NCBI GenBank assembly: GCA_009760855.2
Contig: WPIO01000028.1
Location: 1,798,001 to 1,862,000 of the forward strand
DNA from: Cristatella mucedo
Taxonomy: Eukaryota > Bryozoa > Phylactolaemata > Cristatellidae
Reading direction: 5' to 3'
DNA: 64,000 nt
Of this stretch, positions 9,906-58,581 are shown one piece after another. The notes beneath the pieces are model-generated. The model was given only the letters and a program-made list of their open reading frames with translations. It was not told the origin of the DNA and searched no databases. The translations under genes were made by a program, and so were the position numbers. Each line of letters begins with the position of its first letter. Position 1 is the stretch's first letter.

Positions 9906-9999
9906 TTAACTGCACGACGTTCTCTGAATCGAATCGTAGTTAATCTCATGGCTCTGTTGTTTCAAGTAAATGCCTAGGTAATAGTGATTATAATAATAA

Positions 10000-35993: not shown

Positions 35994-37440
35994 ATGTCTA
36001 CGAAGCTGATCGTCCTGTGCGTTGCCTGTATCATATGCGTCACATCTGTCCTCTGTGAAAACCCGTTCGTGCGACTATCTGAAGGTGAGACATTCTCTTG
36101 CTGCTATTTTCAGATGCCTTCAAGCTTAGTGGATGTACGTAGAGCTCGACTTTTCTCCTCCTAGGGATCGCTCAGGTGCCAGCTGTTGACCGACTTTGGG
36201 ATGCATCGTCGCCTGCGGCACCGCCGACACCTCTAAAGAGAAGATGCGCACGCGTGTGCATACTATCTATCTGTCCAAACGGCGAACCGAGGGATCCGTG
36301 CACTTGCCGTTGCAAAAAGATATGTGCTGACGCATGCATACAGTCACTCTGTCCATGTGGTGTACCGAGGGATCCGTGCACTTGCGGGTGCCCGCCTGGA
36401 TGTGAAGGTATTATTCATATGTACCTGTATATTGGACCGTTCCGAGCAGACTTCAGTCAAGCGGCGATTAAAACAGTGCTCAGAGCCAGTGGCTGCACTG
36501 CTGGCTTGTTCATATTTCTCCCACTTGACTGTGAATTTTTATAGATTGAGGCATTACCCTTCATGGTAGCTATAAGCTCTAAAATAGCTGCTACCATTTC
36601 TCAGTGCTATGGAAAGTGTTCAAACCACGCTTTGTAGCGAGTGGATGGATTCTTTAATCAAATTATCCTTAGGAAAGGCTGAGCAAGTTTGAAGGGCGAC
36701 TGGAGTGGTAAGGGCTTAGCAGTGCATGAGTCAGGCTGTAGCAGTCGGTTCAGGCTCCCGCATCTGAAGTTGCAGACACCGAAACAGCTCTCCGTTTGGC
36801 GATATTACTTCCCCCATTAGACCGCACATATAGCGCGTTAGCTCCTACCGGGTAGACAGAGGAGGCCCCCTTGGGGGGGGGCATACAAGTCCATAAGATC
36901 GGCCTAGCAGGTGAATTCTAGTTATTTATCAGGAGTGCTGCTACTGGCCAGTGATTAGGCATCCGGTTCCTTCTTATAAGGTATTGCTCCAACAGCATAT
37001 CCGACAGCTGTCTCGATATTGTCTACCTCGTAATAAGTAGTTTTGAGGCAGCGGTCCGGGTCACGCAGCTATTTCTAACCACGACTATCCAATCAAATGT
37101 ACGCATTATTTGTACGTGCATGATTTCAGGCTAGCAATATTATAAAGCAGTCTGCTTCGCCTGTGGGCATTTTACCAAGTCTGCTACTACTCATGAACGC
37201 CTTACCAAGGACGAGGTCGGGCATCTCCTAACACACTTCAGGGTAGAAAAAAGGCGTGGTAGATTATTTTACAATATACAGTTACGTGAACAATGAGCTG
37301 TCTGACTAGCATTTAATATTGATATTTTGGCGCTATAAAGTGATTACGAAATTGCTTCTGTTCTGCGTTTTATGAAGTCTCTCTAAACGCTTGCTTTCAT
37401 TTTAGACTTAAAGGAAAAACGGAACGAGTTAGAAGTTTGA
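35994..37440 (+). CDS. Secreted two-domain cysteine-rich protein, gene 1 (three exons)
   Basis: Exons 35,994-36,084, 36,165-36,407 and 37,406-37,440 (stop TGA) have donors AAG|GTGAGA and GAAG|GTATTA and acceptors cctcctag and tcattttag. Both introns are phase 1 and the 369 coding bases close in frame (122 residues). Exon 1 encodes a signal peptide (MSTKLIVLCVACIICVTSVL), cleavage likely after VLC. Exon 2 encodes a Pro/Ala linker, a dibasic KRR, then two domains: CARVCILSICPNGEPRDPCT with CRC, and CADACIQSLCPCGVPRDPCT with CGCPPGC. Exon 3 adds a charged tail (DLKEKRNELEV). The ATG lies in acc-ATG context. Domain spacing resembles a shortened antistasin half-domain, so a secreted protease inhibitor or defence peptide is possible; this is inference. 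Paralogues: 49.6 kb and, reversed, 58 kb. Confidence 0.8.
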
Positions 37441-37488
37441 AATCTCGGAAGAGAAATTTTCGCAATTGAAAATGCTTTCCTGGATAAG

Positions 37489-37494
37489 AATAAA
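37489..37494 (+). terminator. Polyadenylation signal of cysteine-rich gene 1
   Basis: AATAAA 49 bp after the stop codon. The equivalent signal follows gene 2 (51,903). Confidence 0.7.
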
Positions 37495-38225
37495 TGATCA
37501 TGGCAGTGCAAGGTCGTGTATCTTTACGATTGGCGCAGATGTATCCGAACAATGTTATCCTTTATTGTTTTATTCCTAGCATGGCGACATTGGGTATCCA
37601 TGCAAGTTCTGCTTAGAGCAGCTCACCAAGTATTCCAGCCATTAAACTTCTTAGGATTTCAGGTAACTCATAAATGAACTAACTTCTTATAGGTGGATTT
37701 GTCCCACATACTCTTTAAATTTCTAAAGATACCCAACAGCAAATTTCATTTGCTTTGATGAAAAATTTTATTGAAGATTCTGAGAAGCTTTCGTTGGCAT
37801 CGATGCCAATGCTATGTATCTCGCACTCTTGAAGAAAACAAAATCACTAACCCTACGTAACAAAAAATCTCAGCGAGATTCACTAACTTGAGCCCGCCTG
37901 TTTCCTAACTCACCGTTGAATTCCAAATTAGCTTTTAAGTGCACACTTTTAGAGTGGCTTCGCAGTGCAGCAAAGTTTGAGCAGAAACGATATGATCGTT
38001 TCTTCATTTCTAGTTGCAAAGGTACGACTCGAAGTCGTACCCAGAATGTTTGACCTTAAGCCACACTAAAAGTTGAATATGAAAAACTATCTCAAAAAAT
38101 TTTTTAACACCGCAAAAAATATTTCGCTAGTAATATTTGTCTTAAAGACATTAAATCATAACATTTTTTCACATTTTTAGCTGTATAAGTTATTTATGAA
38201 GCACTTCTGAAAAGTGCTGAAGTAT
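37495..38225 (+). repeat. Downstream flank of duplication unit 1, first block
   Basis: From about 37,780 it matches 53,290-53,720 at roughly 65-75% by eye (agcgagattcactaact, tttatgaagcactt). It contains a hairpin ggtacgact-cga-agtcgtacc at about 38,020-38,040. Not coding. Confidence 0.65.
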
Positions 38226-38235
38226 GGTCTATATC

Positions 38236-38532
38236 TATGTCTATTTATCTCCGACTTTAACTCCATAAAACCACAAAGACTATATGGATGTTAACTTGGA
38301 GAGTTTTATAAAGTGAACTAACAGCCTTAGCGGCTTTCAGTTCGCATTCGATAGCCAAAAGACGTCATCTCGAGCAACATAGAGAAAGGGAGAACAATAG
38401 CTGAGTCAGGAAAGCAGTTGACATAGTAAGTAACTTGAACGTAGCAGCTCAGGATGGGTGGAAAGGATGTGCCATAGTCGGCAGCAAAAGAGCAGCTGTC
38501 GCTGCGTAAAAATAGTGGAGGTGAGTTACACA
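38236..38532 (-). repeat. Repeat R-C, copy 3
   Basis: An antisense relative of 3,389-3,652 (ggaaagcagttgacatagta, ggatgtgccatagtcggcag), ending at the 5' boundary gctgcgtaa. Confidence 0.7.
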
Positions 38533-38694
38533 GTTTAATACCTGCAGAGCAAAGGCTTCTGCAGCCAGTGGTCTGTAAGCTGAGAAATGCTAATTTATTA
38601 CCAATTCATGACCTGAGCTCATGAAAAGGCAAAGACTGGTACAGGAGTTCACGTAGATATGTAGGAGCCAATGAAATAATAACAATAATAATAG

Positions 38695-40060
38695 GGATTT
38701 CGATACAGTACCCTCTGAAAACTTAATCTCTTTCTAAGCACTTTAAATTTTCTGCAAAGAAAGTACAATCAAAATGTTAGTGGCAGCATGCTCAATAAAC
38801 AGCAAAAATAACATGGTTAGGGGTGCCATGCACAGGGTAAGCATGCAAGTATGGTTGGTGGCAGCATGCACTGTGTCAGCACGCAAAATCACTTAAACGA
38901 GGACTCACATGTAAGCACTAAATGCTGGTATAAATAGATGCTTTATTAGTTTTTAATAAATGTGGTCAAATCAGGAGACGTCGTGATGGAAGTCGGACGT
39001 GAGTTCCATGCTTTGGGAGCATGCGAACTAAAGGCACGGTCCCCAAAGAATGGGAGTTTCGTAAGAGGTATAAGTAAACGATTATATTCCAAAAAGCTGA
39101 GCTGGTTGTAGGATGCTTCGGCCGGTAAGGAAGTCAATCTGATTAATGAGCTGTAGCCAGCGAATGAAGAGACCTAAAAGTGAGTGACGAAACCTTGAAC
39201 TCGATGAGTTTCTTGACTGGGAGCCAGTACAGGCTGGCGAGAAGTGGTGTGATGTGGCAACTGCGACTCTCACGACAGATAAGCCTAGCTGCAGAGCTTT
39301 GCACCAGCTGTAAGTGTTTGATTGCACACACCGGTTGACCAGCTAGAATTGAGTTACAAGTCAAGGCTTGGATGTCACAAATGCACGTACCAACTTAGAT
39401 GTGATATCCCTCTCTAAACAAACCCGAATTTAACTAATGTTATGTAGCTGAAACTAGGCTGATTTGGCTGTGGAGCTGATGTGGTCGTCTAACGAAAGAT
39501 CCTTTTGGAAAATGACACCCACATTTTGTGAAGATTTAATAGGAAATATGCTAGCAGAGCAGATTGTGAGCGTTGACCTTTCCAATATCTGAATCGCACT
39601 GGGCTAGCCCTTAACTAGTAAGTCTGTTTTATCAGCATTCCATTCAAGAAAGTTTGCTATCATCCACGTGTGAATGTCATCAATGCATGCGACAGGGGAG
39701 TTGAGATAATTTCACGTGCTGAAGGACTGGAGGGAATTAAAGTAAAGGTACACCTATCTGTAATCTGCATTGAAGTAAAAACCTAGCTCGTGCGTGGCAA
39801 TCACATCAGCTAGAGAGGGAGGGCATATATCCTGAAAAGAACGGGACCAAGCATAGAGCCGTGAGGCACGCAGTATTTCAGAAGCGTCTGGAATGATCTT
39901 TGTGCATTTACATCAATACTCTGTAGTCTTACATTGAGATGGTACCCGAATCAGTGCAATGCAAGCCAGTGATGTGCAGGCAAAATGTAAGGAGCTCTGG
40001 AAGGACTTATTGATCGATAGTATCAAAAGCTGCCTAAAGACATATTAAAACAAGCAGATA
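38695..40060 (-). mobile_element. LINE-A 3' half, diverged
   Basis: Antisense tail at 38,695, C-terminal coding region (LAGQPVCAIKHLQLVQSS at about 39,300-39,360), and RT segments up to about 40,050 (antisense of a degraded motif C near 39,760). Many indels. Confidence 0.8.
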
Positions 40061-40074
40061 TACTCTACCTGAAT

Positions 40075-40615
40075 AATAATAATAATAGTGTACTTGATAA
40101 AGCGACCTCAGAGAACTCAATCTCTTCTAGGCGCTTTACATTTGCTGCAAAGGGAAACGCGATTGAATCGTGAGCATTATCATGCTTGATAAACAGCATG
40201 AACAACGTGGTTAGGGGTGACATGCACCGGGTCAGCATGCAAATGTGGTTAGTGGCAGCATGCACAGTGTCAGCACGAATAAGCACACGAAGGACGAATC
40301 ACAGGGACCCACTAAATGCTGTCCTAAATAGGTGTGTTTTTAAGTTCCTTTTAAATGTTGTCAAGTCAGGGGATGTTCTGACGCAAGTTGGGAGGGAGTT
40401 CCAGGCTTTGGGAGCATACGAACTAAATGCACGGTCTCCAAAGGATTTCAGGCGTTTACGAGGTAGTGGTAAGCTGTTGGATTCCGAAAAGCGGGTGGTA
40501 CGATGCTTGGCCTGGTGGGGGAGCCAAAGAATGAAGTGACCTAAAAGTGAGCGACAAAACCTCGAAGTCAATCCGTTGCTTGACTGGTAGCCAGTGCAGG
40601 TCGGCGAGAAGTATC
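40075..40615 (-). mobile_element. LINE-A 3' fragment
   Basis: Antisense tail next to an ATA microsatellite. The minus frame at 40,299-40,571 reads [20 protein letters not shown] to FRTAFSGSL. Truncated at about 40,615. Confidence 0.88.
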
Positions 40616-41510
40616 TACATTCTTAACGCTGTATCGTCTAAACATTTTATAGAATTAATCAAAAGTGTTAATTTTTACTGAAATTGGCATATTAAAAGAT
40701 AAACTACTTGTAAATGCAATCACAAATTTTGGTGGTTGTGAGATGACTTAATATGGTCATTAAAGTTATTATGTAAGACCTTTTAAAACCGGAATTAGTA
40801 CATCGACCTCAACAATATAATCTTCTTTGAAAAATAACCGAGCCGGAACTGCGGTTTTCTGGTGAACTCTGAGAATATAAACTACTCAGCACTAAACGGA
40901 CCCTCGGAAAATAAATTTGGAAAATGTTAAAACGTTAAGTTTTCCCAAAAACGACATGTCCCTCTAGATCAAACGTCCTACTGGTAGTATAACAAGATCA
41001 TAAAAGCATAAACCCTATCGGCCGGGGCCTAGTCCCACCGCTTACCCACCCGCCCATAGTAACCGGCTGCAAACGGAATTCTAAGACCCACTCGCTATTT
41101 AATAGGCATGAACATGTTTACATTGATATTTTTTACATCGGATCAAACCGAAAGGGACTGTCGCGGCCAGTAGACTACCATTAGGGATAATGTAGTGAGA
41201 ATTTACTGCTTCTGGAGCCGCCGTAACTAAGGAGTCCATTACCTAGGCACTTCATGAATTCTGGGACAGCTTATCCGGTTGTAGCAGCCAAAGCGCACGA
41301 GGCGACTGCCGTGAGTGCTGCCTTGCTCTGCGGCCGGTCAGCGTGGTGACTTGGATTGAACAAGTTTGCCGTTTACTGGAAGTCAGTCTGAAAATGTTGA
41401 TTCATTTCTATTCAAGGAAATTGAGGTGATTTCACGTTTATCATTTATTTGGTTTATAGTTGGATATTTGTATTGGCGAATGCGGGTGAGCCTCCCGGCT
41501 GTAGCGTGAT
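40616..41510. other. Stretch without recognisable feature
   Basis: AT-rich. No gene or repeat identified. Confidence 0.4.
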
Positions 41511-41516
41511 TTGACA

Positions 41517-42345
41517 TAATAATAATAATAATAATAATAATATTGCACTTGATAAAGCGCCCTCAGAGAACTTAATCTCTTTCTAGGCGCTTTACATTTG
41601 CTGCAAAGTGATATGCAATAGAATAGTAAGTAAAATCATGCTTGAAAAACAAGCAAAATGAATAATATGGTTAGGGGTGACATGCACAGGGTCAGCATGC
41701 AAATGTGGTTAGTGGCAGCATGCACAGTGTCAGCACGCATAAGCACATCAAGGACGAATCACAGGGACCCACTAAATGCTGTCCTAAATAGGTGTGTTTT
41801 TAAGTTTCTTTTAAATGTGGTCAGGTCAGGGGATGTTCTGACGCAGGTCGGGAGGGAGTTCCAGGCTTTGGGAGCATGTGAACTAAACGCACGGTCTCCA
41901 AAGGATTTAAGGTTTATACAAGGTATTTGTAGACTGTTGGATTCCGAAAAGCGAGTGGTACGATGCTTGGCCTGATGGGGTAGTATATCTGAAAGATAGG
42001 CTGGAGCCATAGAATGAAGAGACCTAAAAGTGAGCGACAAAACCTTGAAGTCAATCCGTTGCCTCACTGGTAGCCAGTGCAAGTCGGCGAGAAGTGGAGT
42101 AATGTGGCAACTGCGACGCTCACGACAGACAAGCCTAGCTGCAGAGTTTTGCACCAACTGCAATCGCCTGATCGCACATGCTGGTAGGCCAGTAAGCAGT
42201 GAGTTGCAGAAGTCGAGACGGGATGTCACGAATGCATGGACCAACTTGGACGTGGTATCCTTATCTAAACATGCCCGAATTTTAGCAATGTTATGAAGCT
42301 GAAAATAGGCAGATTTGACTGTGGAGCTGATGTGGTCGTCTAACG
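41517..42345 (-). mobile_element. LINE-A 3' fragment, well preserved
   Basis: The minus frame at 41,759-42,244 is the intact LINE-A C-terminus (161 codons, from [20 protein letters not shown] to FRTAFSGSL). The antisense tail and ATA repeat lie at 41,517-41,620. Confidence 0.9.
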
Positions 42346-42559
42346 GCCTGCGATGAGATCGATCGTGGTTATGTTCTGCTTACGTTATATAAAGGTCTTG
42401 TTAGGTTGACCTATTCCTAAGATCCATATTAAGACTCTGGAATATATGATTGTATCTACCCATCCCAGCCTTCTCGCGTGCATATTGGACCTAAGTAGAT
42501 AAGACTTATTTTGATCAAAGCTGGCTGTGTCTACTACTTGAACCTACATTCTTAAGTAG

Positions 42560-43005
42560 GGCGTTATAAACCGTGAGGGAACATGACTCTGCAGCCTGCG
42601 AGCACTGGGAGGAGACCGTACGAGGGTTCAGAGTGCCTAAGCAGCCGCAGGCTCTTAAGCGCTAGAAGGGTAGAAAGGCAGACGATAACTCGGTGGATAA
42701 CTCAGCAGTCCTGCCCAAATGCATGCATTGGCGGTGCATCTGTGGGGACATCCACCTACCACAAACTGCCGCCAGCTGTCGGGCGTGTTGGGAACGAACA
42801 ATGGCTCGACAGTGCAAAAACAACGCATACGTGGAATATAAAGGCTGCCGAAGGAATACGAGGGAGGGCTAGATCTCTCGACCCCGGCAGCCTTCTAGAG
42901 TGAGTAGGCTGGGCTTGGCCGGCGTGGTTTGGAATAAAGTGTTTGGTGTTGGGAGCCAGCAGGCTCGTTCGGTCACTCTACCCAGCCCAACGACAGGTCG
43001 TGCGG
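42560..43005 (+). repeat. LTR-like repeat G, copy 1
   Basis: Part of it (42,590-42,790) matches 50,690-50,935 in antisense (actcagcagtcctgccc, ggggacatccacctaccaca). An AATAAA (ggaataaagtg) lies at about 42,932. The class is uncertain, perhaps a solo LTR. Confidence 0.5.
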
Positions 43006-43009
43006 AGGG

Positions 43010-43790
43010 CTGTCACATACACCCGTAGCAATGCCGATTCTTCTGAGGAGTGGTTAGTTCTACAGCCAGACTTGAACTTGGAGGCAAGGTTTGAAAATTC
43101 AATATATGAGTCTAGCTGGTCTGCATCGACTCGTTCCAGCGTCTTTGATAGAAACGGCTGAAAGGAGACTGGGCGGAAGTTGCTCAAGTTCTCTTGGACT
43201 AGTGTTGCATTAGAGTAGTGCCTGACTATTGCCTTTTTTAGGTGCTGAGACATGACCTGAGGCTAATGATATGTTTATGATGTTAGTTATAAATGACAGC
43301 GGCAGATCTATGCATCATAAAAGCAGGAAAGTGGGAATAATGTCCGAATGAATAGTTATCTGATTTGATTGGTATATGAACTTTAGGACGAAGTCACTGG
43401 TGACCTTGAATATAGGCATTGAGCTGCTGCATGGAATTGAGGGACATGATTTCGGGAAGGTTGACTAGTCCTCGTATGCCTGTCGGTAGACAGTTGGTCA
43501 TGATCTTTTTTTTTTCAAGCTTAAGCTTAGTAGACTTAGCTAGTTTATAATCTGTGGTAAATCAAAGGCCGTCTGGGCGAGGGTGCACAGTGTGCTTAGA
43601 GGTAGAAACTCATTTATCACGTCAGCTAGCCTCGTGTTTTAGCTACCAATCTGCATGGCGGAAGTGGGAGTGAGCAGTAGAGGCAAAGCAGATATTCACG
43701 CACGAATAACATCGATGCCAAGGCTCTTGAGGTTTCGTGATTCACAGGTGATTTAACAAGAAGACGAGGAGGAGGGCACACATTGTAGAC
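43010..43790 (-). mobile_element. LINE-A middle fragment (endonuclease end to RT start)
   Basis: The minus strand encodes ENLSNFRPVSFQPFLSKTLE (RT start, about 43,100-43,190). At the far end it has the antisense of the endonuclease C-terminus (equivalent to KTPDIDAVHARISAS). The 3' part is missing. Confidence 0.8.
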
Positions 43791-44645
43791 TGAAAGAGCC
43801 AAGCCTTACCGGGCTTTGTAGGTCAGCATAAGAACCTTGCTCTGCATCCGCAGATCAAACGGCAGCCATCCTAGATCTTTCAGTGGATACAAATGGTCAA
43901 ATCTCTGGGATAACTAAACTAGCCTTGCAGCCATATTCATTGCCAGCTTCTGAGGTGTAGTGACTTTTCACTAGCTCAGCCAAAACGGAGTTGTGAAAAT
44001 CTAGCTAAGACAGAACGAAGGAACTAACATAGTTACATTTTTTTGCAAGCCACATCAGAACACAGTTCCTAATCTCATATAAGAAACGGACGTAGTGGAG
44101 AGCCGTGTAAGCAGTCTTCTTGACGATGCTTTAAAAATATAGGCAGCTGTCGAAGACGACACATAAATTTGGAGCAAATGGTAATGGTCGTAGAACCACA
44201 TCACCTACTTGAATTGCGAAGCCTTTTAGTCCAGCCACACGCTCGGGCAGTCCGATGAGCAGCATTCCTTTTGATCGTCGTTTAGTGTAAGGAAATTTTC
44301 CGACCTCCATGATCGAACGTCTGCAAGGCAAGCATTCAGTTTATCAGTCGTTGCAGCATATTCTGATGGGTTAAATGAGAAATACAGCTGCGTTTCGTCA
44401 GCATAAAAATGATATCCTATACCACGGGCCTGAATCACTTTTTTTCCGGATGTTGAGTATAAGCGGACAACAGAAAATGACCGAAGACAAACTTTGGGGG
44501 ACTCCACAGGTGACTGGTCTGGTGGATGAGACCTGACCCCCACACGGCAGGCAATGACCACGATCAAACAAGTACGATTTAAACCACGTCAGTGCCTTGT
44601 CTTTCAGACCGATCGCTGTTCTCAATCGTTGAAGTGTGACATGGC
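43791..44645 (-). mobile_element. LINE family B, second copy (RT to C-terminus)
   Basis: The minus strand carries ALTWFKSYL, a damaged GVPQS motif B, YHFYADETQLYFSFNPSE (motif C with DE for DD), LNACLADVRSW, and near 43,850 GWLPFDLRMQSKVLMLTYKA. It supplies the C-terminal half missing from the copy at 1-2,335. Confidence 0.78.
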
Positions 44646-46050
44646 TGTGACTGAGTAGCTCTAAGCCCATGACAGATATTTTCTCAAAATTTGATAATTT
44701 TACGAATCATTTAGAAGTGCGACCTTAATTAGCACTATTGGTATGTCGATATAGCATTGGCAAAATAGCAGTTAAGGATTTCGAATTTCTTTGCCATCGG
44801 TAGTCCTATGAAAGGTGGCTATCATCTGTCATTTCTTTGTGCAATAATTTTTAATTAAAACATTAGTCTTAAAGCTTGCCAATCGTACTTCATGAATGGA
44901 AAGTCTAGAATAAATGTCAGATGAAGCTGAAAAAGTCTACTTTCCCAGTTTCTATACTACTGGAATATAATGAGTGGCACTACAAAATACAGAGTGGCCT
45001 AGTCACGTCCACTCACCTTATCCTGAAGTACTATAAAACGTTGCGAATCAGTCGCACGGGGGAATTCTAACGACACTAATTTTGCCGACAGACTCCGTCA
45101 CTTACGAGTTGACGATACTTGTATCACAGTGATCAATTGTATGTTGCTCCTAAACAGCGAAATATGAGAGCAATCTTTCCGTAAGTATCAGACAGAGAGA
45201 CTGGACAGAACAAGCACAACGCGCCGTCCCGTAGTTGGCTTCAGTGTGAGAATCTATAGGTCTGCTTTCTACGTCCCTCTCAAAGTAAATTCCTTATCTT
45301 AAACTGCATCCCCAACCTAGCACCGACAAGCATTCACGATGAGCCGACTGAGCGCAGAAGACAATTAGCATGATGATCAGCACGATGATCAGCATGGGGC
45401 CGCTTTTGCGCTACATTAAACATGTCTATACAGCCAATATAATCGTAAATAGTTTCCGTTGGATTGGCGCTCTCGGATGGCATAGCTCCAGCGTAATACG
45501 TACGCTTTTAAATTAAATTCCGTCGAAGTAACAGCAAGTCAGCAGTAAGTCACTGCTGGAACATATCTGAAACTGCAGTGAACCAATATCATAGATTAAA
45601 TGGAATTCTTATGCAAATATCTGGGACACTGCAAGTAAGCTTAGCTGCATTTTAGCAAAGCCGTTTACAGCCGATATATAGATATCCACTACTCAGGTAG
45701 AACTTTCTATTATTAAGTGTATCTTTCACGTTGTACTGGATCAGAGCCTCAAGTAACATCGGCTTCGTTTTTTAAATAAATCTCGCTTCTAAGTTATGCC
45801 TATCCCGAAACAAAGAAATTGGTAGTGTCAAGACTCTTAATATTGTAGAATATATGCGATGCAGTACAAACGGAACTAGACAAATTAATAAGAATTAAGC
45901 TAAAGTTTCAAATCTGTGTAACTGGTTTATTGCAGTGAGAAAGAAAGTCTATAAAAATACTTAAACACATGTTCATTAAGCACAATGTTTCCATAATGAG
46001 TTCATGGAAACGGATCTCTCTATTCTAGCGTGATAATTTGATTTTTTGGA
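44646..46050 (+). repeat. Downstream flank of duplication unit 1, second block
   Basis: Matches 53,725-54,985 in order (gacagatatttt, actgcatcccc, gcatgatgatcagcatgg, gtgtaactggtttatt). About 6.4 kb of repeats (38.23-44.64 kb) now separate it from the first block. No gene seen. Confidence 0.65.
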
Positions 46051-46890
46051 TGACTGGTTGGTCCCGGCCATTGAAGGCAATAGCATGAGAATGCAAATCG
46101 AATGCAAAACTTCATGATCTTTTCAGAGTAAATCCATAACACAGTGGCTATAATCCGGAATCCAAACCGCAGTTGCACATTGTCTTCTATGGAAATGGCT
46201 GCAGTATCGTTTTTTGTAATAATACTGTGCCTTTGTTCATTGGAGGCTATATCGTGAGAACGGACACGTGCAAGAGCATGAGATTTTGCGGGTAAACTCG
46301 GAACACTCGTGTCTAAAATGTTAAATTAATACTTTAGTTTTAGAACAATTATTGTGGAAATAACAGCCGTATCACAGTTTTATTATAAAGGAAAGCTGAA
46401 TTTCCGGGCCATCGTAGGCCACAGCAAGAGAACGGGCGAGCAAACTATATTCTTTATAATTTAAAATGAAAATTCCCAGTTTCTAGAACCTCTTGCAGAA
46501 ATGGCACCTGTGTTGCAGTTTAATTATTTAGGGTTGATAGCTGGGTCGTTCAACTGGAAGCCATAGCATGAGAGCTCGTTAGAAAGATTACCAGAAACCT
46601 ATTGGGTTAGCGTGCAATTCTGTTTCGTAAAATTACAAATCAAAATCGCATTTTCGTGAAGCTGTTTATGCAAACGGCAGCTTTATTGCAGTTCAAAAGT
46701 TTTGGGCTGTGGCTTTCAGTAGGCCATCTGAGAGGCTGTACTATGAGAACACCGTAGTGTAAACGCATGAACATTTCTTGGGTAAACCAGTAACGTCACT
46801 CCGTACAACTTGAAATAAAACCTCTTTTTCGGAAGTTTATAATGGACATGGCAGCTATATTGCAGTGTGTCACTGAGGATCAATGTGTAT
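46051..46890. repeat. Diverged tandem array, five units of about 165 bp
   Basis: Two landmarks recur in register. The first is atggcagct-tattgcag-like words at 46,194, 46,361, 46,501, 46,673 and 46,849. The second is catagcatgagaac-like words at about 46,080, 46,247, 46,424, 46,562 and 46,740. No coding frame is maintained. Confidence 0.65.
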
Positions 46891-46984
46891 AGCAGTCATT
46901 CGTGTGACCCGAATGTGTTTGCTAGCATCTTACCACGGCGACGTGCCGTCGGGTAGCCAATCATCTGTCAGTGCCGTGTAGCTA

Positions 46985-47335: not shown

Positions 47336-47484
47336 CCTATTGATGGCCAGGTTCTTCTTAAATCATCTCGCCTAAGGGTCACCATACTCATTCTGTGTGT
47401 GTTTTCTAGATTGTTATCAATGTGACGTATTCCGGCTAGCCGGTCAGTGTAGTGCAGGCGCATTCTAGTTAAGTCGTTTGCTTG

Positions 47485-47720
47485 TGCTTTGAACTAACCT
47501 CAAATTCTTTCGGGACCGTGCATGTGGTTCGTTTGCTCTCGAAGCCTGGAACAGACTATTGGCTGACGTCAGGTCTTTGCCTGACATTGAAAGAGAAGCT
47601 AAAAATACACCTGTTACATGCAGCATTTTCTTGTTCCGTGTGAGTTATTTTTTTTGCGTGTTAATGCCTACAGATGCTGTACAAGTTATCACTAACGAAA
47701 TGGCAAGCTTTCTTAGCAGC
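47485..47720 (+). mobile_element. LINE-A-like C-terminal fragment
   Basis: Sequence reads as LKFFRDRACGSFALEAWNRL...DIEREAKNTP, a degraded form of [20 protein letters not shown]...FKRNLKTHLF, with frameshifts. Confidence 0.65.
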
Positions 47721-47894
47721 ATATGTAAAGTGATAAACAAGATATTTAGCTATACTAATGTGCTATATATTTGTTAGTGTTACTAATATTACTCTGTCAC
47801 TGCACTGCAATGATTCAGGTCGACGACACTCAGTAGCTTAGGCAGTAGGTTGGATTACGTCATCCGGTAGTGGTAAGACAATGAGCCTCAAAAG

Positions 47895-48081
47895 CAGTGG
47901 TTCTCAATCTTCCTAATGCGGCCACCCTTTAGTACAGCTCCTCATGTTGTGGCGACCCCCAGCCATACAATTATTGTGTGCGAAACATGGAAATGCATGT
48001 TTTCCGACGGTCTAAGGCTACCCATATGAAAGGGTCGTTCGAGCCCCAAAGGGGTAGCGAGCCACAGTTTGAGAACCGCTG
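47895..48081. mobile_element. SPIN-like non-autonomous hAT element, copy 2
   Basis: A 187-bp element with termini cagtggttctcaa and ttgagaaccgctg, interior gtacagctcctcatgttgtg and gaaagggtcgttcga. It is flanked by ctcaaaag / ctctatag (6 of 8), a plausible worn hAT target duplication. Orientation is opposite to copy 1. Confidence 0.85.
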
Positions 48082-48099
48082 CTCTATAGCACGGGCTGG

Positions 48100-48530
48100 G
48101 GGTTCTACAGGCTTTATCCACTTATTATCAAAATTTATACTCTCAATCTAGCCGATTCAATTGCCATGCAGAATTTATGCTTTCATTTTTGTTGTAGATG
48201 ATACGTATTTGGACCTATGCTTAGATCTCTAGTTGACGTGCAGCTCGGAAAACTCTATCAGCTCCCTAGCTATATGCAGTGTGGACATTCGCACTGGGAT
48301 GGCAGCAGACATTATCAAATCAATTGGCCATACAAACAAAATAATAATGATGGTCAAAATAATGCTGCTCGGAAATCGGTTAACAATTTAACCCTCGATG
48401 AGCGCATCTCCATTAGTATCTGCCATTAATTTGGGTGTTCTACTCCAAATTGGCCTTTCACTAGCAGACCGCATCCGTTCCATAGTAATGCCTTCCTACT
48501 TTCAGCTACAAGACATTCCAAAAATGTGGG
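48100..48530 (+). mobile_element. LINE-A reverse-transcriptase fragment, strongly diverged
   Basis: Follows the LINE-A order: atgcagaatttatgctttca then VVDDTYLDLCLD (motif C region), then a segment matching LGVLLQ. Many stops. Confidence 0.6.
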
Positions 48531-48963
48531 CCTGATTACAAAAGAATAACCCATCCTTGGTAGCTAAACGTAAGGTACATCGCTAGTTAGTTACATAGTC
48601 CGTAAGTTAGCTAGTCCGTCCGTGACGTCATATTAACATAAAGTCCTCCATGGTGTATTCATAGTCAGGCAGCGAGGGTGCACTGACGATAAATGGCAAA
48701 AAACACGGTGTCAAAGGAAAAATAATTCTATTTTATATGTAGGTTCAAATTGCAATCTTGAATTTAAAATTGAAAGTGATATACTAGAAATTCAAACCAT
48801 TAAAACGGGTTTAAACTTAAAAAGGTTTTATAGAGGTCAGTCGCGGCAGTCCAGCTGCTTGCCCTTACAAAGCTATGTCCGAAGTGACGACTGACGCTTC
48901 CGGTGCTCTCCAGATTCCGCTTGGCGTAATTGAGTTGTCGTGTTGAAAAGCAGCCCGAAATAT

Positions 48964-49138
48964 GGTGAGCCGTAATAGCACACTAGGTAAGATGGCTGCT
49001 TTTCACGACCTCGGTTCCGAGATCATGGGTTCGAACCCTGCAGTGGGCAGCCCTTAATTGCCACTGAAAGCGGTGGAGATTGCTGTAAAAGCTCTTCTGT
49101 TGCTATATAAAAGAGGCTGTTAAATCAGCTGGTATTAA
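48964..49138 (+). mobile_element. SINE-1, copy c (full length)
   Basis: A box region tagcacactaggtaag, B box gggttcgaaccc, body gctgtaaaagctcttc, and 3' end aaaagaggctgttaaatcag. Forty bp separate it from the start of duplication unit 2. Confidence 0.85.
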
Positions 49139-49175
49139 TGTATTTTATTTCTAAAGTGAGAGTTCTACCAATTTG

Positions 49176-49564
49176 GTTAAATGGCTGTGAATTAATGGCA
49201 GACTCTAGATTCCCAGCCAGTACATTTCTTGAATGAATTCCAATCAAGAAACAGAATAAGCAACGAAATTTTGAACCTGAACTTCCCTTAACGAGGGAAT
49301 GAGCTGGAGCCCGAACGTGTCAGGTCGAACGTGCCGAGCCCGACGAATTACTTCGGCTCGGACGCGAATGCTGCCCTACTATGCATTTATTCAGTCGCTG
49401 CTAGCAGACAAGTGGTCTCCAGCCCACTCAAGCCGTTCTTATAATTGGAGGGCAGGTTGACCAATGGGAATGCCTAATAATGCCACGGCCGTGCCGAAGG
49501 TGCTTGCATTTAAGATTTAAGCTTCCGGGTATGATGTCAGTCGAGAAGCAACTAGAGTGCGACC
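49176..49564 (+). promoter_or_regulatory. Promoter region of cysteine-rich gene 2
   Basis: Shares the CCAAT box, cacggccgtg palindrome, TATA-like tttaagatttaag, tcagtc initiator and upstream stem with gene 1 at the same spacing. Homology starts abruptly at gttaaatggctgtgaat. Confidence 0.5.
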
Positions 49565-51829
49565 ATGTCTACGAAGCTGATCGTCCTGTGCGTTGCCTGT
49601 ATCATATGCGTCACATCTGTCCTCTGTGAAAACCCGTTCGTGCGACTATCTGAAGGTGAGACATTCTCTTGCTGCTATTTTCAGATGCCTTCAAGCTAAG
49701 CGGATGTACGTAGAGCTCGACTTTTCTCCTCCCAGGGATCGCTCAGGTGCCAGCTGTTGACGGACTTTGGGATGCATCATCGCCTGCGGCACCGCCGACG
49801 CCTCTAAAGAGAAGATGCGCACGCGTGTGCATACTATCTATCTGTCCAAACGGCGGACGGAGGGATCCGTGCACTTGCCGTTGCCGAAAGAGAATATGTG
49901 CTGACGCATGCATACAATCGCTCTGTCCATGTGGTGTACCGAGGGATCCGTGCACTTGCGGGTGCCCGCCTGGATGTGAAGGTATGGTCTACAGGTTATA
50001 TACCTGTCTAGTGCGAGTAGACCTCAGCCAAGCGACCATAAAAAATGTGCTCAGCACCGTGACGAAAGTGGCAGTACTGCTGGCTTGGTCATAGATCTTC
50101 TACCTCACTGCAAATATTTGCATTACCCATCACGGTAGCAATCAGCTCGCCAATAGCCGCTTCTGTCTGTCAGTGCTTTGCAAAGGGTTCACACCACTAG
50201 TATATCCTCATAACTACTTTCTAGTGCGTGAATCCACTGTTCTTTCAAACTATCCTTATGACGCATTGTGCAAGTTTGAAGGTAAGCCGACGTGAAGTGG
50301 ACTTAGCGGTGCTTGAATCACGCTGTAGCAGTCAGTTTGGTCTGCTGTAACCGAAGATGCAAGCATTGAAGCAGCTCTCTCTATGTCAATACAATATTAC
50401 CCACAGTAGACCACCTAGATAGCTCGTAAACCCTTGCGAGAGACAAAGGTCCAACACCAAGCACTTTATTTAGAGACCGAGCCGGCCAAACTGGCCCAGA
50501 CTTCTGCCAGCGTCGAGGGATGTAGCCCTCTTCCCTTATGTACTCATGCGAAAGCCCTTACATTCCAAACATGCATTGTCGCTGCACTGTTGAGTCATCG
50601 TGCCCCGAGGCATGTGTGAAGCGCCTGAAGAGAGATCAAGTTCTCTTATTGCGCTATACAAGTGAATTATATGTATATATAATTGTACATGTCGTTCCTT
50701 CTAAGACCGCCGGCAGAAGGCGGCAGTTTGTGGTAGATGGATGTCCCCCGCAGATGCTGCCAATGCATTAATTCAGGCAGGACTGCTGAGTCATCCGCCG
50801 ATAGCCACAGCCAGACCCTCGACCGCTCGCGAGCCTACGGCTGCTGCGGCAGTCTGAGCCCTCGTAGGGCCTCTGGCCAGCTCTCGCATGCTCCTGAGTC
50901 ATATTCTCTCACACCACTCTTCAGAAGTGTAGTCGCATGTAACTGGTGCTATAAAGTTTAGCTCTACATGAAGCAAGGGTGAACTTTTAGCTTTGGACTT
51001 CAACTACGGCATTGTTTAGTTTAAAAAACATCGTCCGCACGGGCTGCACTATGAACAGAGTTGACCCAGCCTGTCTTCAACAAACTTTTATTAAGCCTGG
51101 GACAAAATCCAATGCAGTTACGGCTAGTAGGAATTTCGCTAAGCAATCATTATGAATTGAAGTCTCTAGCTCTATTTGCCATGAAACCTGGCTCGAGGAA
51201 AGCGCCAGCCAATCAACGAGACAAGCAGGGACGGCCGCGTGACATTGCCAGCCGCGGTCTGGTAAGCGCATGGCGCGGTCGTACTCGAATCCGTCAACAA
51301 ATCCGTCGTCTCTCAGTCTGCAGTATGCCTAATCTTTAGAATAGGTCTCTGCACGCATCTGCATGCAGACACGATGATTTCTCAGGTAGTTTACTTTATA
51401 CATTGCAGCCCTTGCTGTTTGTTACTTCATATACCAAAACGTTATAAGTTACGTGCTTCTTTCTTGCTATGCAATAAAGATAGGCTTACAAATATTCTTA
51501 GATGTGACTGCCGTTGTGTACGCATGATATGACGGTAGTAAAGTTGCAATACCTTCTCTTTTGTCTGCTGGCATGCTACCATGTCTGCTACTGGACATTT
51601 AGCATTACCTAGGACGCGGTCCGGCGTATCCTCGAAGAGTTATGGCTAGTAAAAAGAAGACGCGGTAATTTATTTTGTACTATATTGTGACCCAAAAAAC
51701 GTGCTGTATATTTTGGCATTTAGTTTTGATATTTTGACGCTGTCAAGTGATGACGAAAGTGCTTCTACTCTGCATGTTTTTGGAAGTCAGTCTAAAACGC
51801 TTCTTTTCATTTTAGGCTTACTGGAATAA
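49565..51829 (+). CDS. Secreted two-domain cysteine-rich protein, gene 2 (three exons)
   Basis: Exons 49,565-49,655, 49,736-49,981 and 51,816-51,829 (stop TAA) are phase 1 at both junctions. The 351 coding bases close in frame (116 residues). Exon 1 is identical to that of gene 1, so the signal peptide is the same. Exon 2 differs at a few sites: Arg to Gly in the linker, Glu-Pro to Gly-Arg in domain 1 (CPNGGRRDPCTC), and one added codon (RKRIC for KKIC). The second domain again has two extra cysteines (CPCG and CPPGC). Exon 3 is shorter than in gene 1 and adds only GLLE. Intron 2 (1,834 bp against 998 bp) has gained a SINE-2 tail and an antisense repeat G. Function as proposed for gene 1; both copies look intact. 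Confidence 0.8.
50595..50672 (+). mobile_element. SINE-2, copy 4 (3' part), in intron 2 of gene 2
   Basis: ggcatgtgtgaagcgcctga and gttctcttattgcgctatac, the shared LINE-A/SINE-2 tail. Absent from intron 2 of gene 1. Confidence 0.65.
50690..50935 (-). repeat. Repeat G, copy 2, in intron 2 of gene 2
   Basis: Antisense match to 42,590-42,790 (tgtggtagatggatgtcccc, gcaggactgctgagt). Confidence 0.6.
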
Positions 51830-51902
51830 GAGACAAGTTTAAGATCCTGAAAATCTGAAAAAGGAATTTCGCAATCTCTAAAATTACGCTTTATTGGCTA
51901 AG

Positions 51903-51908
51903 AATAAA
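51903..51908 (+). terminator. Polyadenylation signal of cysteine-rich gene 2
   Basis: AATAAA 74 bp after the stop, in the same local context (taagaataaat) as in gene 1. Confidence 0.7.
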
Positions 51909-52041
51909 TAAGCATTTAACTTCCTTCACTTACCTTATCAATGAGTTAATTAGTCGACGTCAGGCTACTGGGACTGAGTATCATCAGTGAGTTAACCAAC
52001 CACTTTAGTTCCTCGAATATGAAAATATTGATACATTTTGT

Positions 52042-52356
52042 GTGCATTTACTTCATGTAGGTATTCATTTTTATTACTTATTGCTAAGAAGAAGCTTGCG
52101 AATTAAATTGGTTGGCCACCATATCCATACTCTCTGGCCGATATATATGGAACTCTGCAAGCTGTACCAAGGCGACGTCGTTGAATCAAAGGCGTATCAT
52201 CTATCCGCCATTATTTTTCTGCTAATATTCATGTTGTCAGCGAAAGTATTCTGGAATACCACGAAGCCAGATACAGAGACCAAAAAGTGTGATGGCAAGT
52301 CCAAAATCACATATCTCAACTATCGGTGCAGGTATCTTAAAATCAAGTTATTCTGA
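52042..52356 (+). other. Unassigned 104-codon open frame
   Basis: It has a hydrophobic segment (AIIFLLIFMLSAKVF) and a charged C-terminus. No family recognised and no counterpart in duplication unit 1. It may be chance. Confidence 0.2.
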
Positions 52357-52436
52357 AATGTTTCTTAATCATCGAAGTGATGTGGGGTGAGTATCCACTT
52401 CATTCCTCTTTATAGTAGATCATAAAGTATGCCAGC

Positions 52437-53115
52437 CATAATAATAATAATAATAATAATAATTCACTTGATAAAGCGCCCTCAGAGAACTCAATCTCTC
52501 TCTAGGCGCTTTACATTTGCTGTAAAGTGGAATGCAATTGAATGGTAAGTAAAATCATGCTTGAAAAAACAAACGAAATGAATAATATGGTTAGGGGTGA
52601 AATGCACAGGGTAGCATGCAAATGTGGTTAGTGGCAGCGTGCACAGTGTCAGCACGCATGCACAAGCACACCAAGGACGAATCACAGGGACCCACTAAAT
52701 GCTGTCCTAAATAGGTGTGTTTTTAGGTTCCTTTTAAATGTGGTCAGGTCAGGGGATGTTCTGACGCAGGTCGGGAGGGAGTTCCAGGTTTTGGGAGCAT
52801 ATGAACTAAATGCACGGTCTCCAAAGGATTTCAGGTTTGTATGAGGTATTTCTAGACTGTTGGATTCCGAAAAGCGGGTGGTACAATGCTTAGCCTGATG
52901 GGGTAGTATATCTGACGGATAGGCTGGAGCCATAGAATGAAGGGACCTAAAAGTGGGGGACAAAACCTTGAAGTCAATCCGTTGCTTGACTGGTAGCCAG
53001 TGCAGGTCGGCGAGAAGTGAAGTAATGTGGCAACTGCGACGCTCACGACAGACAAGCCTAGCTGCAGAGTTTTGCACCAGCTGCAATCGCCTGATCGCAC
53101 ATGCTGGTAAGCCAG
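52437..53115 (-). mobile_element. LINE-A 3' fragment inserted in duplication unit 2
   Basis: ATA repeat, antisense tail, and a minus frame (52,682-53,100) from [20 protein letters not shown] to FRTAFSGSL, truncated at the 5' side. Confidence 0.9.
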
Positions 53116-53289
53116 TAAGCAATTGAAATAATTTGTATCGCATGGAGCTTGAAACTGAATTAATTGTGGATAGGTGGATCTGTGCCACGTAATGAGTAAA
53201 CGTCTAAAAATCCCTGACCACAAACAGCATTTTCCATGACGGACTACCTCGTTAAAGATTCCAAGAGTATTTTGGTATGGTATGCGGGA

Positions 53290-54985
53290 TGTAAAAGCTG
53301 AGTATCTCACACACTTAGAAAAAGAGAGCTGCTGATCCTATTTTAATAAAATTTTTAGCGAGATTCACTAACTTTATATGGTTATGCTTCTTAACGCTTC
53401 ACTGGATATAAAAGTTAGCTTTTCAGTGAAAGTTATTACAGTGGTTTGGCAATGCGTCATGGGTAGAAACCAAAATCGTAACATATTTTATTAATTCACT
53501 TTAAAATTCAAAGAACGAGTCAAAAGTTATGCCCAGACCGTTTGTTGTTATGCCTTGCTAAAAGTTGATCGTGTGAAAAATTTTCTAAAAAATTTACCAA
53601 ATAGCAAAGAGAAAGTATTTTATTGTAAATGTGTTTCTGGAAAACAAATCCCTATACAACTATTATACATTTTAGCTGTCTAATGTATTTATGAAGCACT
53701 TGTCAATAATTTTGGAGGCTGTTATGTCAGTGAGTGAGTAGTATTCAAGTCCTTGACAGATATTTCGTTGAACATTACTAATTTTTATGAATGCTTTGGA
53801 TATGTAGCATTAATTAGTACTCTGGGTCTATCAATACTGCAGTGGAAAAAAAATCGCATTAAAGGATTTCGTATTTCTAAGCGTTTGTTAGTCAAATGCA
53901 AGGTGTTAATAATCTTTATTTTTCTTGATGAAATAATTTTTGTAAAATAGTCAGGGATTTTCCAAAAGGCTGATTTACTTGTTAGAAATAGCTGAAAGCT
54001 AACAAATACATTTAAAAATCTGCAGTGACTGATCGTAGCAAAAATTAGGTGCCAGATCTTCACGGCAATCTCATATTCTCTGCGGAAATGTCTAAAATCT
54101 TGCCACGAGTACTTTTATTATGGAAAGCGTCACTAATGTTGATGGCTTTAGTTCAAGAATCTGCTGCTGTGCTCTCTCAAATTCAATTTCAAGCTAAATT
54201 GCTTATCATAAACTGCATCCCCGCCATAGCACAGATAACTTATGCCCAGTGTATTTATAAATGAGCCGACGTAACACAGAAGACGATTTGCGTGGTGATT
54301 AGCATGATGATCAGCATGGGCCTGCTTTCGGGCTGCATTAAACAGTTTTTAAGGAGCACAAATCGTCGTGAATAATTAATTTCTATTGGATAAAGGCTCT
54401 CCAATTGCATTGCTCCAGCTCAGCAAGTACGCTTTTACAGTTTGCATTTGTTTCCGTCGATGTATCAGCAAATCGGCAGTAAGTCACTGCTGGTACCTTG
54501 TCCGGGACTGCAGAGAACCAATATTGCAGATGAAATTTAACCTCTATATAACCATATCTGGGACTCTGCGAGAAAGCTTAGTGTTTTCTCTAAAAGCTGA
54601 TTATAGACAATATTTATATATACTACACAGAGAGAACTTTCCATTACTGATTGCATCTAGCACGTTGTACGTGAGCAAAGCCTTAAGTAATGTCGGCTTC
54701 ATCTTTCTATAAATCTCACTTCTTAATTTTGCAAAACCCGAAAAAAATTAGTAGTGTCATGACCCTTGATACCTGTAGAATATATGCAATAAAGTACAGA
54801 CGGAACTATACAAATTAAAAAGAATTCAGCTACAGCTTCAAATATGTGTAACTGGTTTATTTACAGTGAGCAAGCAAGTTTGAGACTAATGTTCGTCCAG
54901 CACAGTTTTCCAATCATAGATACTTCATAAAAGCTGGTCTTCCATTCTAGTGAGTGACAGCTGAACTATTTTTCTCCAAGTAAAG
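53290..54985 (+). repeat. Downstream flank of duplication unit 2
   Basis: Continuous counterpart of the two unit 1 blocks (about 37,780-38,225 and 44,646-46,050). The open frames here (for example 54,049-54,264) are not kept in unit 1. Confidence 0.65.
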
Positions 54986-57900
54986 CATTATTGAAGTCGA
55001 ATATAACTAACACTGCCTAAGCATCACTTCTAAAGCCATATTATGCCGTCCGGATTACTTTCTATATTCATGAAGAGTTTTTCTAATTAAATACCGGCTA
55101 ATTTGAAATCTTACCGCTCCGAAAATCTCTAATACAGGACCAAAGAAAAAGGTTTGCAATGAGCAAAGGTATTTTTTTCTCCCTCTTGGATCAGCAAAAG
55201 GTCTCCGATAGTTGTCAAAAGTGCAAGGGTAAACTACAGTCAGAAAGAAATATAAAAGTGCTCTGTGAGGAGATGACACAAAGCCCAATCAAAGAGCACG
55301 TATAGGTTTCGTCGGACCACTTTTTTGAAATAAAGAAGGAATTGCATTAACAATGCTTTTTAGGCAACGCGTCCAACGCTAATGTTTCCTATTTCTAAAT
55401 CGCAGACACACGATTGATAGTAAGCTAGCAGCTGATTTCAATGATTTATAGTTCACGCGGCGCATACAAGTATGTCTATTTCCACGAACATGGCCGAGAA
55501 GACGAGAACAGCTGAATCCATTTGGCATACTTTTTCTCAATTTTCTGTAACAGATTAAATTTTGGATTTTCTTCTACTCATACTACTTTGATTTGCGTTG
55601 CCATTATGTTAGGAGAGGGCGGCAAGCTAAGACGCTTCTTTCACAAATGATTTATAAGAACAATTCAGCCACCAATGTGCCCCGTGCTATTATAAAAGTG
55701 TCTCTGCTTGTCTTTTATAAACGCCCGCGGAGCTCGTGCAGCGAGCTAAAAACGCCGAGGTCGCTCAATTTGAACCTGCTACATGCGATGCGGTCAACTT
55801 AATGTGTCTTCAGCTGCGGGAGGGAGTGCATATTTTCATTGATGACGCTCGAATAGAACAAATAGCCTCTCAACGGATTTTTACAATAAAATCGTATCCG
55901 CAAGAAAAGAATTTCATATAAATATCGAGTCTTCCTCCCATCGTGAAGAATGACTGCTGTAAGTAGTTTCGACGTGGCAAACCTTTGGTGGGATAGACTA
56001 ACTTTTGGTGCGATGGATTACTGCTCGGATCCTGAACAAGCTGTTATACTGGTCTTCGATTCTGCTAGCTACTTCCATGTTATCTGCACGGCTATTCGTG
56101 CCGCAGTTTATAGACCTCGATATTTGCGTCACAAGGAATGGTCCATGTGGGGATAATTCTACATGCAACGTGCTCCCATGCTAGATGATCGCTGAAAAGC
56201 CTACCACGTCGAATTCTTACTCTTGCGTTTCGATGACTCCACTTGGAATGCTAAATCATTCAGATTAAGATAGTCTAAGCGGTAGTTATCAGTGCTTGAA
56301 TTACCAGCTATAGGAACAGATATTTCATTGTTAATAAATGGATGGCTGTGCTGTGGGCTTCGAATCCGTTGTCGGGTCTTCAGACTAGACTGTTGCACGC
56401 ACTAGCTGGTGATGTGCACCTTGCTAATCAGCCGATATTTACTCAGGTATGCGAAGCAAGAGCTGCCCACCAACCCAGCGTACGTTACTGTGTAGTACGT
56501 GGCGACGATGTGAGTGCAAGTGCAAGCAACCGCTGCCGGGCCCAACGATTCTGTTTGTGTTTCTAAATTGGCTGCACCTTGGTATGACCGCCGTATAGCT
56601 CCACTAATGGCACTAGGAAAATATCGGTAACTTACCTGAGAGCTTGGATATGACTTCATTATAACTTATTTAGATGTAGACCAAATTTATAGTATGATGT
56701 ACATCGAATAATAGCCATTTAGCGTGATCGTGGCATAGAAACAGCAGGTGATATATTCACTTTATTGCTCTATTTGGAATTAAGAAAGCCGATGAGAACA
56801 GTCATTGCTTTGTGAAAATTAGTTTGTTGTATGTTTCTCAAGAGCCGATAACTGAAACCAGACAAAAGCATTGAGGCTATTGCAATGCCTACTAGAGCAA
56901 AACTCGGGCGATAACTGATGCCCAAGCTCTACATATCAGGTAAGCAGATCTCAATAATACAAATAACAAACACTGCTCATGCAAACTGTGCGGTATTACT
57001 GAAAATATAATCATAAGTTTAATGACTCTCCCAGAATTATTACACCTGTGTAAATTTTCTTAAAATCAATTTTTAAGCGTCGAGAGAAGTTATATAGACT
57101 TTTACCCTATAACTAGCTTATTAATCCTTAGCAGTCTATTTAATATGTCTGGAAGATTTAGTCCTCATCGGGTGCTTTTAATATGCTTTGATTAATTATT
57201 ATTGCTGTAATTACTTTTCTTATTTATTTTGCAAAAAATTTATTCATAGATAGAATAGCGTGATGCTCTCGCAATGCAGGTTCGTTATCCGTTTTCTTCC
57301 TGGCTCGTCTTTCGGTCGTTCGTTATGCATATTTACATCAAAGTCCCCAACATTCTAAAGGCATGCGGCGTAAAAGCGCAATGCAAAACAACGTGTGTTC
57401 GCGGTTAATGAATTCCCTTCCATTTGATTGCCAAATTGCCTTTTCAAAAGACGGGAACAAGTAAAATTGCCAAAAACTGGAGCGAGATGAACAAATGGTA
57501 AGCCGGGGATGTTACAACTGATAACCAAGTAGCTGCATACGATTTAGAAGCGGTTTCAAATTTTGCTCCGTCTATTAAAAAGTGGATTTTTCTGTGGCGT
57601 AATACGCTCAAACTTTCCGCTGAAAACGCGCCCCCCGAAAAGGCTCTTGATTGCTCTCTGCGCTCGGTCGCCCCTCGCTGGGTGCCTGGCAGGCCACGTG
57701 GATGTGGACACCGGGTCTCCTTCGAGGAGGAACTTACGGGAAAACTTTAGCGCCAGGGTCTTTACCAGCGTAATATTAGGCGGCGGGGCAGGCACACCTG
57801 TCACTTTAGCCAGACTTATGGGACGCTGTAGCCCCAATGCGTCCTCTTTTGACGCTCTACCTAGCCTTTGTTGAAGCAGGCAGCAAATGAGATCATAATG

Positions 57901-58028
57901 ACAACTGATGACAATCAGAGCCACACGCAGACAAGTACCATCGGCGAGATGGAAGGAGACAGGCAGCAGTAGAGCACACGAAGAAAAGGTCACGTCTGAG
58001 CTGATTCGGGCGTTGCGTTGGTACCTAC
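54986..58028. other. Stretch without recognisable gene or repeat family
   Basis: Open frames of 60-100 codons at 55,593-55,802, 55,950-56,156 and elsewhere show no domain. The minus-strand frame covering 57,556-58,028 continues from exon 3 of cysteine-rich gene 3 and probably includes intron or 3' untranslated sequence. A GC-richer patch lies at 57,600-57,850. Confidence 0.35.
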
Positions 58029-58581
58029 TCTGAAAAATGGGCAAGCTGTCACAGGCGCACGTGCATGGATTTCTTCGGCCCCCATTCGAGCACATTGACT
58101 GGATGCACATAACTGGCGGACAGTGCGTGGCAATTTGTTGAACGGTCGGTCGCGTAAAGGTTTCAGACGCAGTCACTGTTGAGAAGAAAGAATCCACTGA
58201 GCAGGCATACGGAAATCAGAGCAGCTGTTGCTATTGTAAATCGCCATAGATAATAACACTGACGCTAAGCATGGATTTTTCCAAGCCGTTCCTGCCTTTA
58301 GTTTTGCCTTACCCGAATTGCAGCTGCACGTGCAGGGATCTCGTGCCTTTCCGTTCGGGCACATCGATTGTATGCACATTACGGGAATGCAGCCTGGTCT
58401 TAAAGTTGGCGGGAAGATTATGGCTGCCAATGCTACATCTACAAAGAGCCGACGGTTGCAGATTTCCTCATCTCGAAACAATGCCAGCTGCATTGGAATC
58501 AAGCCGACGTCAAAGTACCGAAGTCCACTCACCGGTGATGAGAAGTACGAAGACACTGACCGAGATGAATCTAGCAGCCAT
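58029..58581 (-). CDS. Secreted two-domain cysteine-rich protein, gene 3 (minus strand, 3' end unresolved)
   Basis: Exon 1 (58,533-58,581) starts at cgccATGG and encodes the signal peptide MAARFISVSVFVLLIT, ending at ACCG|GTGAGT. Exon 2 (58,313-58,438) follows ctctttgtag and holds domain 1, CIPVMCIQSMCPNGKARDPC with TCSC, ending at TTCGG|GTAAGG. Exon 3 (58,029-58,175) follows a strong acceptor (ttctttcttctcaacag) and holds domain 2, CPPVMCIQSMCSNGGRRNPC with TCAC, with a candidate donor CAGA|GTAGGT. All junctions are phase 1, as in genes 1 and 2. Here each domain has its own exon, whereas genes 1 and 2 carry both in one. Domain 2 has Asn for the usual Asp before PCTC. The last exon and poly(A) site were not identified. 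A CCAAT box lies about 110 bp upstream (58,690-58,694). Confidence 0.72.

Follow-up and report, generated by a model that had tools for sequence, protein, structure and literature searches.

A cluster of genes for small cysteine-rich proteins, predicted to be secreted, was identified in a 64,000-nucleotide (nt) stretch of the genome of Cristatella mucedo (contig WPIO01000028.1, positions 1,798,001 to 1,862,000), called the window in the following; positions above 64,000 are window coordinates continued past its end. The genes are predicted from the DNA, with splicing at the junctions proposed in an earlier sequence-only reading, which had described three spliced genes, each with a signal-peptide exon and two domains of six cysteines (Cys). 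All three were found at these places, and every junction is GT-AG and in phase 1. Gene 1, when spliced, comprises 369 nt and encodes 122 amino acids, and gene 2 comprises 351 nt and encodes 116 amino acids. Each forms a single open frame closed by a stop codon, and AATAAA signals are located at homologous places 3′ of the two stops; the lengths, the in-frame closure and the signals reported earlier are borne out. The frame of gene 3, which is encoded on the minus strand, is open across its junctions, and its 3′ end is not closed. The exons of the three genes are the following.

35994..36084, plus strand, gene 1 exon 1: signal peptide (MSTKLIVLCVACIICVTSVLC, read by eye) and start of the pro-region; phase-1 donor GAAG/GTGAGA
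36165..36407, plus strand, gene 1 exon 2: pro-region ending in KRR; Cys domains 36245-36313 and 36323-36391 (Cys to Cys)
37406..37440, plus strand, gene 1 exon 3: short C-terminal tail, stop TGA; AATAAA at 37489
49565..49655, plus strand, gene 2 exon 1: same sequence as exon 1 of gene 1
49736..49981, plus strand, gene 2 exon 2: Cys domains 49816-49884 and 49897-49965; RKR between the domains
51816..51829, plus strand, gene 2 exon 3: short tail, stop TAA; AATAAA at 51903
58533..58581, minus strand, gene 3 exon 1: start of the signal peptide
58313..58438, minus strand, gene 3 exon 2: remainder of the signal peptide, then six-Cys domain 1 at 58391-58320; phase 1-1
58029..58175, minus strand, gene 3 exon 3: six-Cys domain 2 (58122-58051); the 3′ limit is a candidate phase-1 donor

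Gene 3 retains 12 of 12 Cys. No stop was found close to its second domain, nor was a terminal exon found; a candidate phase-1 donor, CAGA/GTAGGT, was read by eye at 58029/58028. An array of 122 copies of GGA occupies window positions 58843-59208, some 260 bases upstream of where gene 3 starts.

The pattern C-x(3,4)-C-x4-C-[PS]-x-G-x3-[DN]-P-C-T-C-x-C occurs six times in the window, in all cases inside genes 1-3, and was absent from 60 first-order Markov shuffles. Each of the three proteins combines a signal-peptide-like start with two copies of the motif. A domain profile searched against the window returned nothing else above the inclusion threshold, with the next best match at an expect value (E) of 0.22. 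Domain 2 of gene 1 and domain 2 of gene 2 each have one extra Cys inside (CPCG) and one behind (PPGC), and from first to last Cys their letters are the same. In gene 4, described below, and likewise in genes 1 and 2, a basic site adjoins the first Cys; genes 1 and 2 have a further one between their domains.

Extent and evolution of the cluster

The sequence-only reading had counted three genes, which holds for the window. Beyond its end, where that reading could not see, a further gene and a decayed copy of gene 3 were identified:

72900-72987 and 73073-73227, gene 4: two coding exons, phase 1; one domain, 80 amino acids
about 82150-82960, minus strand, decayed gene 3 copy: no start codon, broken frame, several Cys codons missing

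The cluster is thus larger than first reported: across about 47 kb it contains four genes that look intact and a single decayed copy. Gene 4 resembles genes 1 and 2 in its signal exon, the phase of exon 1 and its pro-region; it has a single domain, and its stop directly follows the last Cys. The decayed copy diverges from gene 3 by 0.36 in exon 2 and 0.32 in exon 3, no less than in non-coding sequence (0.32), and by only 0.20 in exon 1. When the genome (572 Mb) was searched with a domain of gene 1 and of gene 3, E values below 0.1 were obtained only in the cluster, on one contig, for four of the seven matches listed in one search and four of the ten listed in another. A scan with a profile over the 264 kb surrounding the cluster recovered these four genes and had no other match above threshold; further, more divergent members may be present in the genome.

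When exons 1 and 2 of genes 1 and 2 are aligned, 10 of 334 bases differ and there is one additional 3-base indel (non-synonymous divergence, dN, 0.016; synonymous divergence, dS, 0.075); the two genes are recent duplicates. Intron 1, in which 3 of 80 bases differ, matches as closely as the exons do, which points to a tract of gene conversion as the likely cause of the low divergence, selection not being the sole one. In 60-base steps, the divergence is 0-8% from 35620 to 36400 (49190-49981 in gene 2), except for 25% at 35800-35859. It jumps at the border of exon 2 and intron 2 to 20-40% from 36400 to 36879, beyond which the alignment is unreliable. The structures given earlier for this gene pair hold, but the recent duplication with its conversion-like tract had not been noticed. 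The earlier argument was that chance would rarely produce such genes, and the motif is absent from the shuffles; the agreement between genes 1 and 2 is not independent support, because the pair goes back to a recent duplication.

Independent support for coding is provided by gene 4, by the low dN and high dS among the domains and by the decayed gene 3 copy. Among the ten pairs of five domains, dN ranges from 0.17 to 0.33; dS is 0.56 in one pair and in the other nine either exceeds 0.8 or is too high to be computed. Synonymous changes outrun protein changes between domains, and the cluster domains are therefore under constraint. Between genes 1 and 4, dN/dS is about 0.81 in the pre-pro part (57 codons) and 0.46 in the domain (23 codons), both values being rough. 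The genes look real, and the original observation is confirmed; its reading as a cluster for small secreted Cys-rich proteins is supported.

Comparison with antistasin domains

The genome of C. mucedo also encodes canonical antistasin domains. The Pfam model Antistasin (PF02822), whose 26 positions correspond to the six-Cys unit, gave 60 matches at E<=1 and 40 at E<=0.001. The cut-off was exceeded by 59 of the 60, one of them only together with its neighbours, and none lies on the contig of the cluster. In the control genomes a single match was obtained, in Bacillus subtilis and below the cut-off. The number of 60 may be inflated, as equal scores and mirrored spacing at several places on different contigs (C165/C308, C63/C255) suggest possible haplotype copies of one locus. 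The canonical domains are grouped on C681, C79, C255, C308, C63 and others, with several equal-scoring pairs; these may stem from tandem duplication in the recent past or be haplotype copies within the assembly. Twelve of the 60 domains, in 11 loci, were examined; they include two identical pairs and thus 10 distinct domains. The nearest donor after the last Cys is in phase 1 in 11 of the 12, and a phase-1 acceptor with at least nine pyrimidines out of 15 is present in 10. Two antistasin domains of the genome score 42.5 and 40.2 bits, against a Pfam cut-off of 21.2 bits.

The cluster domains share with these antistasins a six-Cys unit of about 25 residues, the element C-P-N-G, an acidic residue and (T/S)C-x-C or CSC, and the first two Cys are separated by three or four residues in both. 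The likeness is illustrated by gene 3 (stretch CIPVMCIQSMCPNGKARDPCTCSC), in which CIPVMC...CPNGKARD...TCSC compares with CEPVLC...CPNGFKKD...FCSC of a genome antistasin, so that CxPV(L/M)C, CPNG, D and TCxC/CSC are elements common to both. Domain 1 of gene 3 is encoded by one phase 1-1 exon, as are most of the antistasin domains examined. Domain 2 of gene 3 is followed by the candidate phase-1 donor, and in genes 1 and 2 both domains lie within one phase 1-1 exon.

Against a profile built from the 10 antistasin domains, gene 3 domain 1 scored 8.3 bits (E 1.7e-4 in a one-sequence search), a score reached by 0 of 500 shuffles that keep the Cys in place. The corresponding numbers are 4 of 500 for gene 3 domain 2, 4 of 500 for gene 2 domain 1 and 7 of 500 for gene 1 domain 1; gene 2 domain 2, with the same Cys-to-Cys letters as gene 1 domain 2, was left out of this scoring. 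A profile-profile comparison of cluster and antistasin domains gave E values of 5.2e-4 and 7.4e-4 in two runs. The profile support for the link is modest and uneven.

Leech inhibitors of this type (poecistasin, hirustasin, antistasin and CRA) are composed of a ten-Cys unit, and as far as the available parts of the literature describe it, the second half of this unit has the Cys order of the cluster domains. The spacing given there for the second half is C-x4,5-C-x3,4-C-x9,10-C-x2,3-C-x-C (PMC12838937), to which the first two spacings of the cluster domains are near. The leech proteins differ from those of the cluster in having x9-10 and x2-3 loops and a further four-Cys half, which was not seen in the cluster proteins (PMC12838937, available portion). 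According to the accessible part of PMC6265900, leech poecistasin ends in YPCTCA, and an alternative register is possible, judging from the sequences, in which PCTC of the cluster would correspond to the last two Cys of poecistasin, with one Cys lost and one gained.

A number of results weigh against an antistasin origin. Compared with the antistasins of the genome, the cluster domains have four instead of three residues between C2 and C3, eight instead of 10 between C3 and C4 and one instead of two between C4 and C5. They likewise depart from the published spacing, as far as available, with x8 and x1 loops in all six distinct domains. None of genes 1-4 reaches the PF02822 cut-off of 21.2 bits. 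The antistasin-profile score was attained by 22 of 500 shuffles of gene 4 and by 48 of 500 shuffles of gene 1 domain 2, and hhalign assigned a probability of 26-31% over 17 aligned columns. The Pfam comparison suggested with the first gene models returned no family at E<=10 for the proteins of genes 1-4 or for the two gene 3 domains alone. Among PDB sequences, nothing significant was found for gene 1 or for the domain profile. Predicted models are weak, with a predicted local distance difference test (pLDDT) of 62 and a predicted template modelling score (pTM) of 0.31 for the first model and values of 76 and 0.33 for the single-domain model. Fold searches with a 30-residue model gave one match to the PDB with Foldseek, which was not significant (E 8.9), and none with VIA for that one chain. 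Because the Pfam score remains below the cut-off and the Cys spacing deviates, the domains are formally not members of the antistasin family.

Nevertheless, an antistasin relationship of the cluster domains is likely on the basis of the sequence comparisons. The description as an undescribed family stands insofar as no match to the exact framework was found in Pfam or NCBIfam, nor a significant one in the PDB, but the domain is most likely a derived antistasin six-Cys domain. With slightly better than even confidence, we propose a birth-and-death cluster of secreted proteins with one or two antistasin-derived Cys mini-domains, which would probably be protease-inhibitor-like. The signal peptide would direct secretion, and the proline- and alanine-rich pro-region of genes 1, 2 and 4 would be cut at KRR or GKRK beside the first Cys; a second cut, at KK or RKR, may separate the two domains in genes 1 and 2. 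Three disulfides may hold the fold of each unit, probably 1-4, 2-5 and 3-6, like the matching antistasin half, for which the available portions of PMC6265900 and PMC12838937 give 5-8, 6-9 and 7-10. An exposed loop would then block the target; as in the antistasins (PMC6265900, PMC12838937), this would most likely be a serine protease. It may be speculated that I and S, which are invariant behind the second Cys, mark the inhibitory loop. If this is true, an inhibitor domain of about 25 residues can cease to be recognisable in profile comparisons after small changes in three loops while its exon phases and a few residues are kept, and such families end up filed as orphans. The two-domain, one-domain and decayed copies lie side by side, which makes the evolution of the domain testable.

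Alternative explanations and further observations

The cluster could instead encode lineage-specific Cys-rich peptides unrelated to antistasins, serving in defence, venom or secretion, or signalling, which reached a similar Cys order independently. We regard this as a tentative alternative. Precursors would be cut at basic sites and free peptides of about 23-30 residues acting on a receptor, a channel or a microbe. The three deviating inter-Cys spacings fit such an origin, as does the failure to find a relative in Pfam, NCBIfam (searched with exon pieces of genes 1-3), the PDB and a protein database. The positions of the basic sites in genes 1, 2 and 4 agree with it too, and the pro-region evolves faster than the domain (gene 1 versus gene 4), as is typical of many peptide precursors. 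However, the residue elements, the x3/x4 variation and the similar exon phases are common to the antistasins of the genome, four of the six domains score above nearly all Cys-keeping shuffles, and gene 3 has no basic site directly preceding its Cys. Were the domains unrelated to antistasin, they would represent a new disulfide framework. A framework C-x3/4-C-x4-C-x8-C-x-C-x-C with release at basic sites, which arose anew or, by way of the three loop changes, left the antistasin fold and acquired a new target, is a possibility that we consider rather unlikely; it would so far be limited to one cluster.

Far less credit is given to the remaining two readings. Chance open frames or decayed copies without function would be compatible with gene 2 being a near copy of gene 1, with one clearly decayed relative and with the last exon of gene 3 not being found. 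This is very improbable in view of the empty shuffles, the four intact-looking genes with GT-AG sites and the constraint on the domains between copies whose synonymous sites are saturated. Slightly more improbable still is a secreted metallothionein-like peptide that binds metal through its CxCxC end. C-T-C-x-C is indeed present in every domain, but the residues invariant between the Cys (I, S, G, R, P, T) and the signal peptide suggest a disulfide-folded extracellular domain, and metallothioneins are cytosolic.

Several other candidates were considered. The IMPI metalloproteinase inhibitor in the PDB was not significant as a relative (E 0.17). A cystine-stabilised alpha/beta fold was suggested by a short helix over C-x3-C in the first model; it was dropped, since the spacing in gene 3 is C-x4-C and no helix appears in the single-domain model. 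Tick salivary families resemble the cluster in being small, secreted and Cys-rich; base composition and the style of the genes had pointed to them, and they were dropped as well. The genome gave no matches to the tick family His_binding (PF02098) and the arthropod family Chitin_bind_4 (PF00379), an absence that is not firm, as 14 control genomes were matchless as well; the 60 matches to PF02822 demonstrate that the genome profile search does detect animal families. PCTC was not found in the available main text of the tick family catalogue PMC9779611.

Further searches were made beyond these families. In the protein database, four candidates were obtained, none at E<=1, which is no evidence of absence because the database is suspected to be poor in animals. 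The viral contigs contained 43 pattern matches, none of which was confirmed, and the 30-residue model gave 10 matches to viral structures, none significant (best E 6.1). The first pattern scan of the genome (321 matches versus 218 for the reversed control) was too loose to use. A text search of the literature for PCTCRC gave no match; two conotoxin papers (PMC6266589, PMC7281422) reportedly contain one NPCTC each.

Self-matches of the window revealed many related copies of a long interspersed nuclear element (LINE), at 3900-4850, 9306-9908, 12245-14253, 22328-24380, 38675-42345 and 52438-53126. An RVT_1 match at 12245-13846 lies within the copy at 12245-14253. Among the neighbouring open frames, which were inspected by eye, L037:8150-8758 (minus strand) resembles NAA30, L029:5042-5767 a leucine-rich-repeat protein and L035:7961-9880 a hAT/ZBED transposase.

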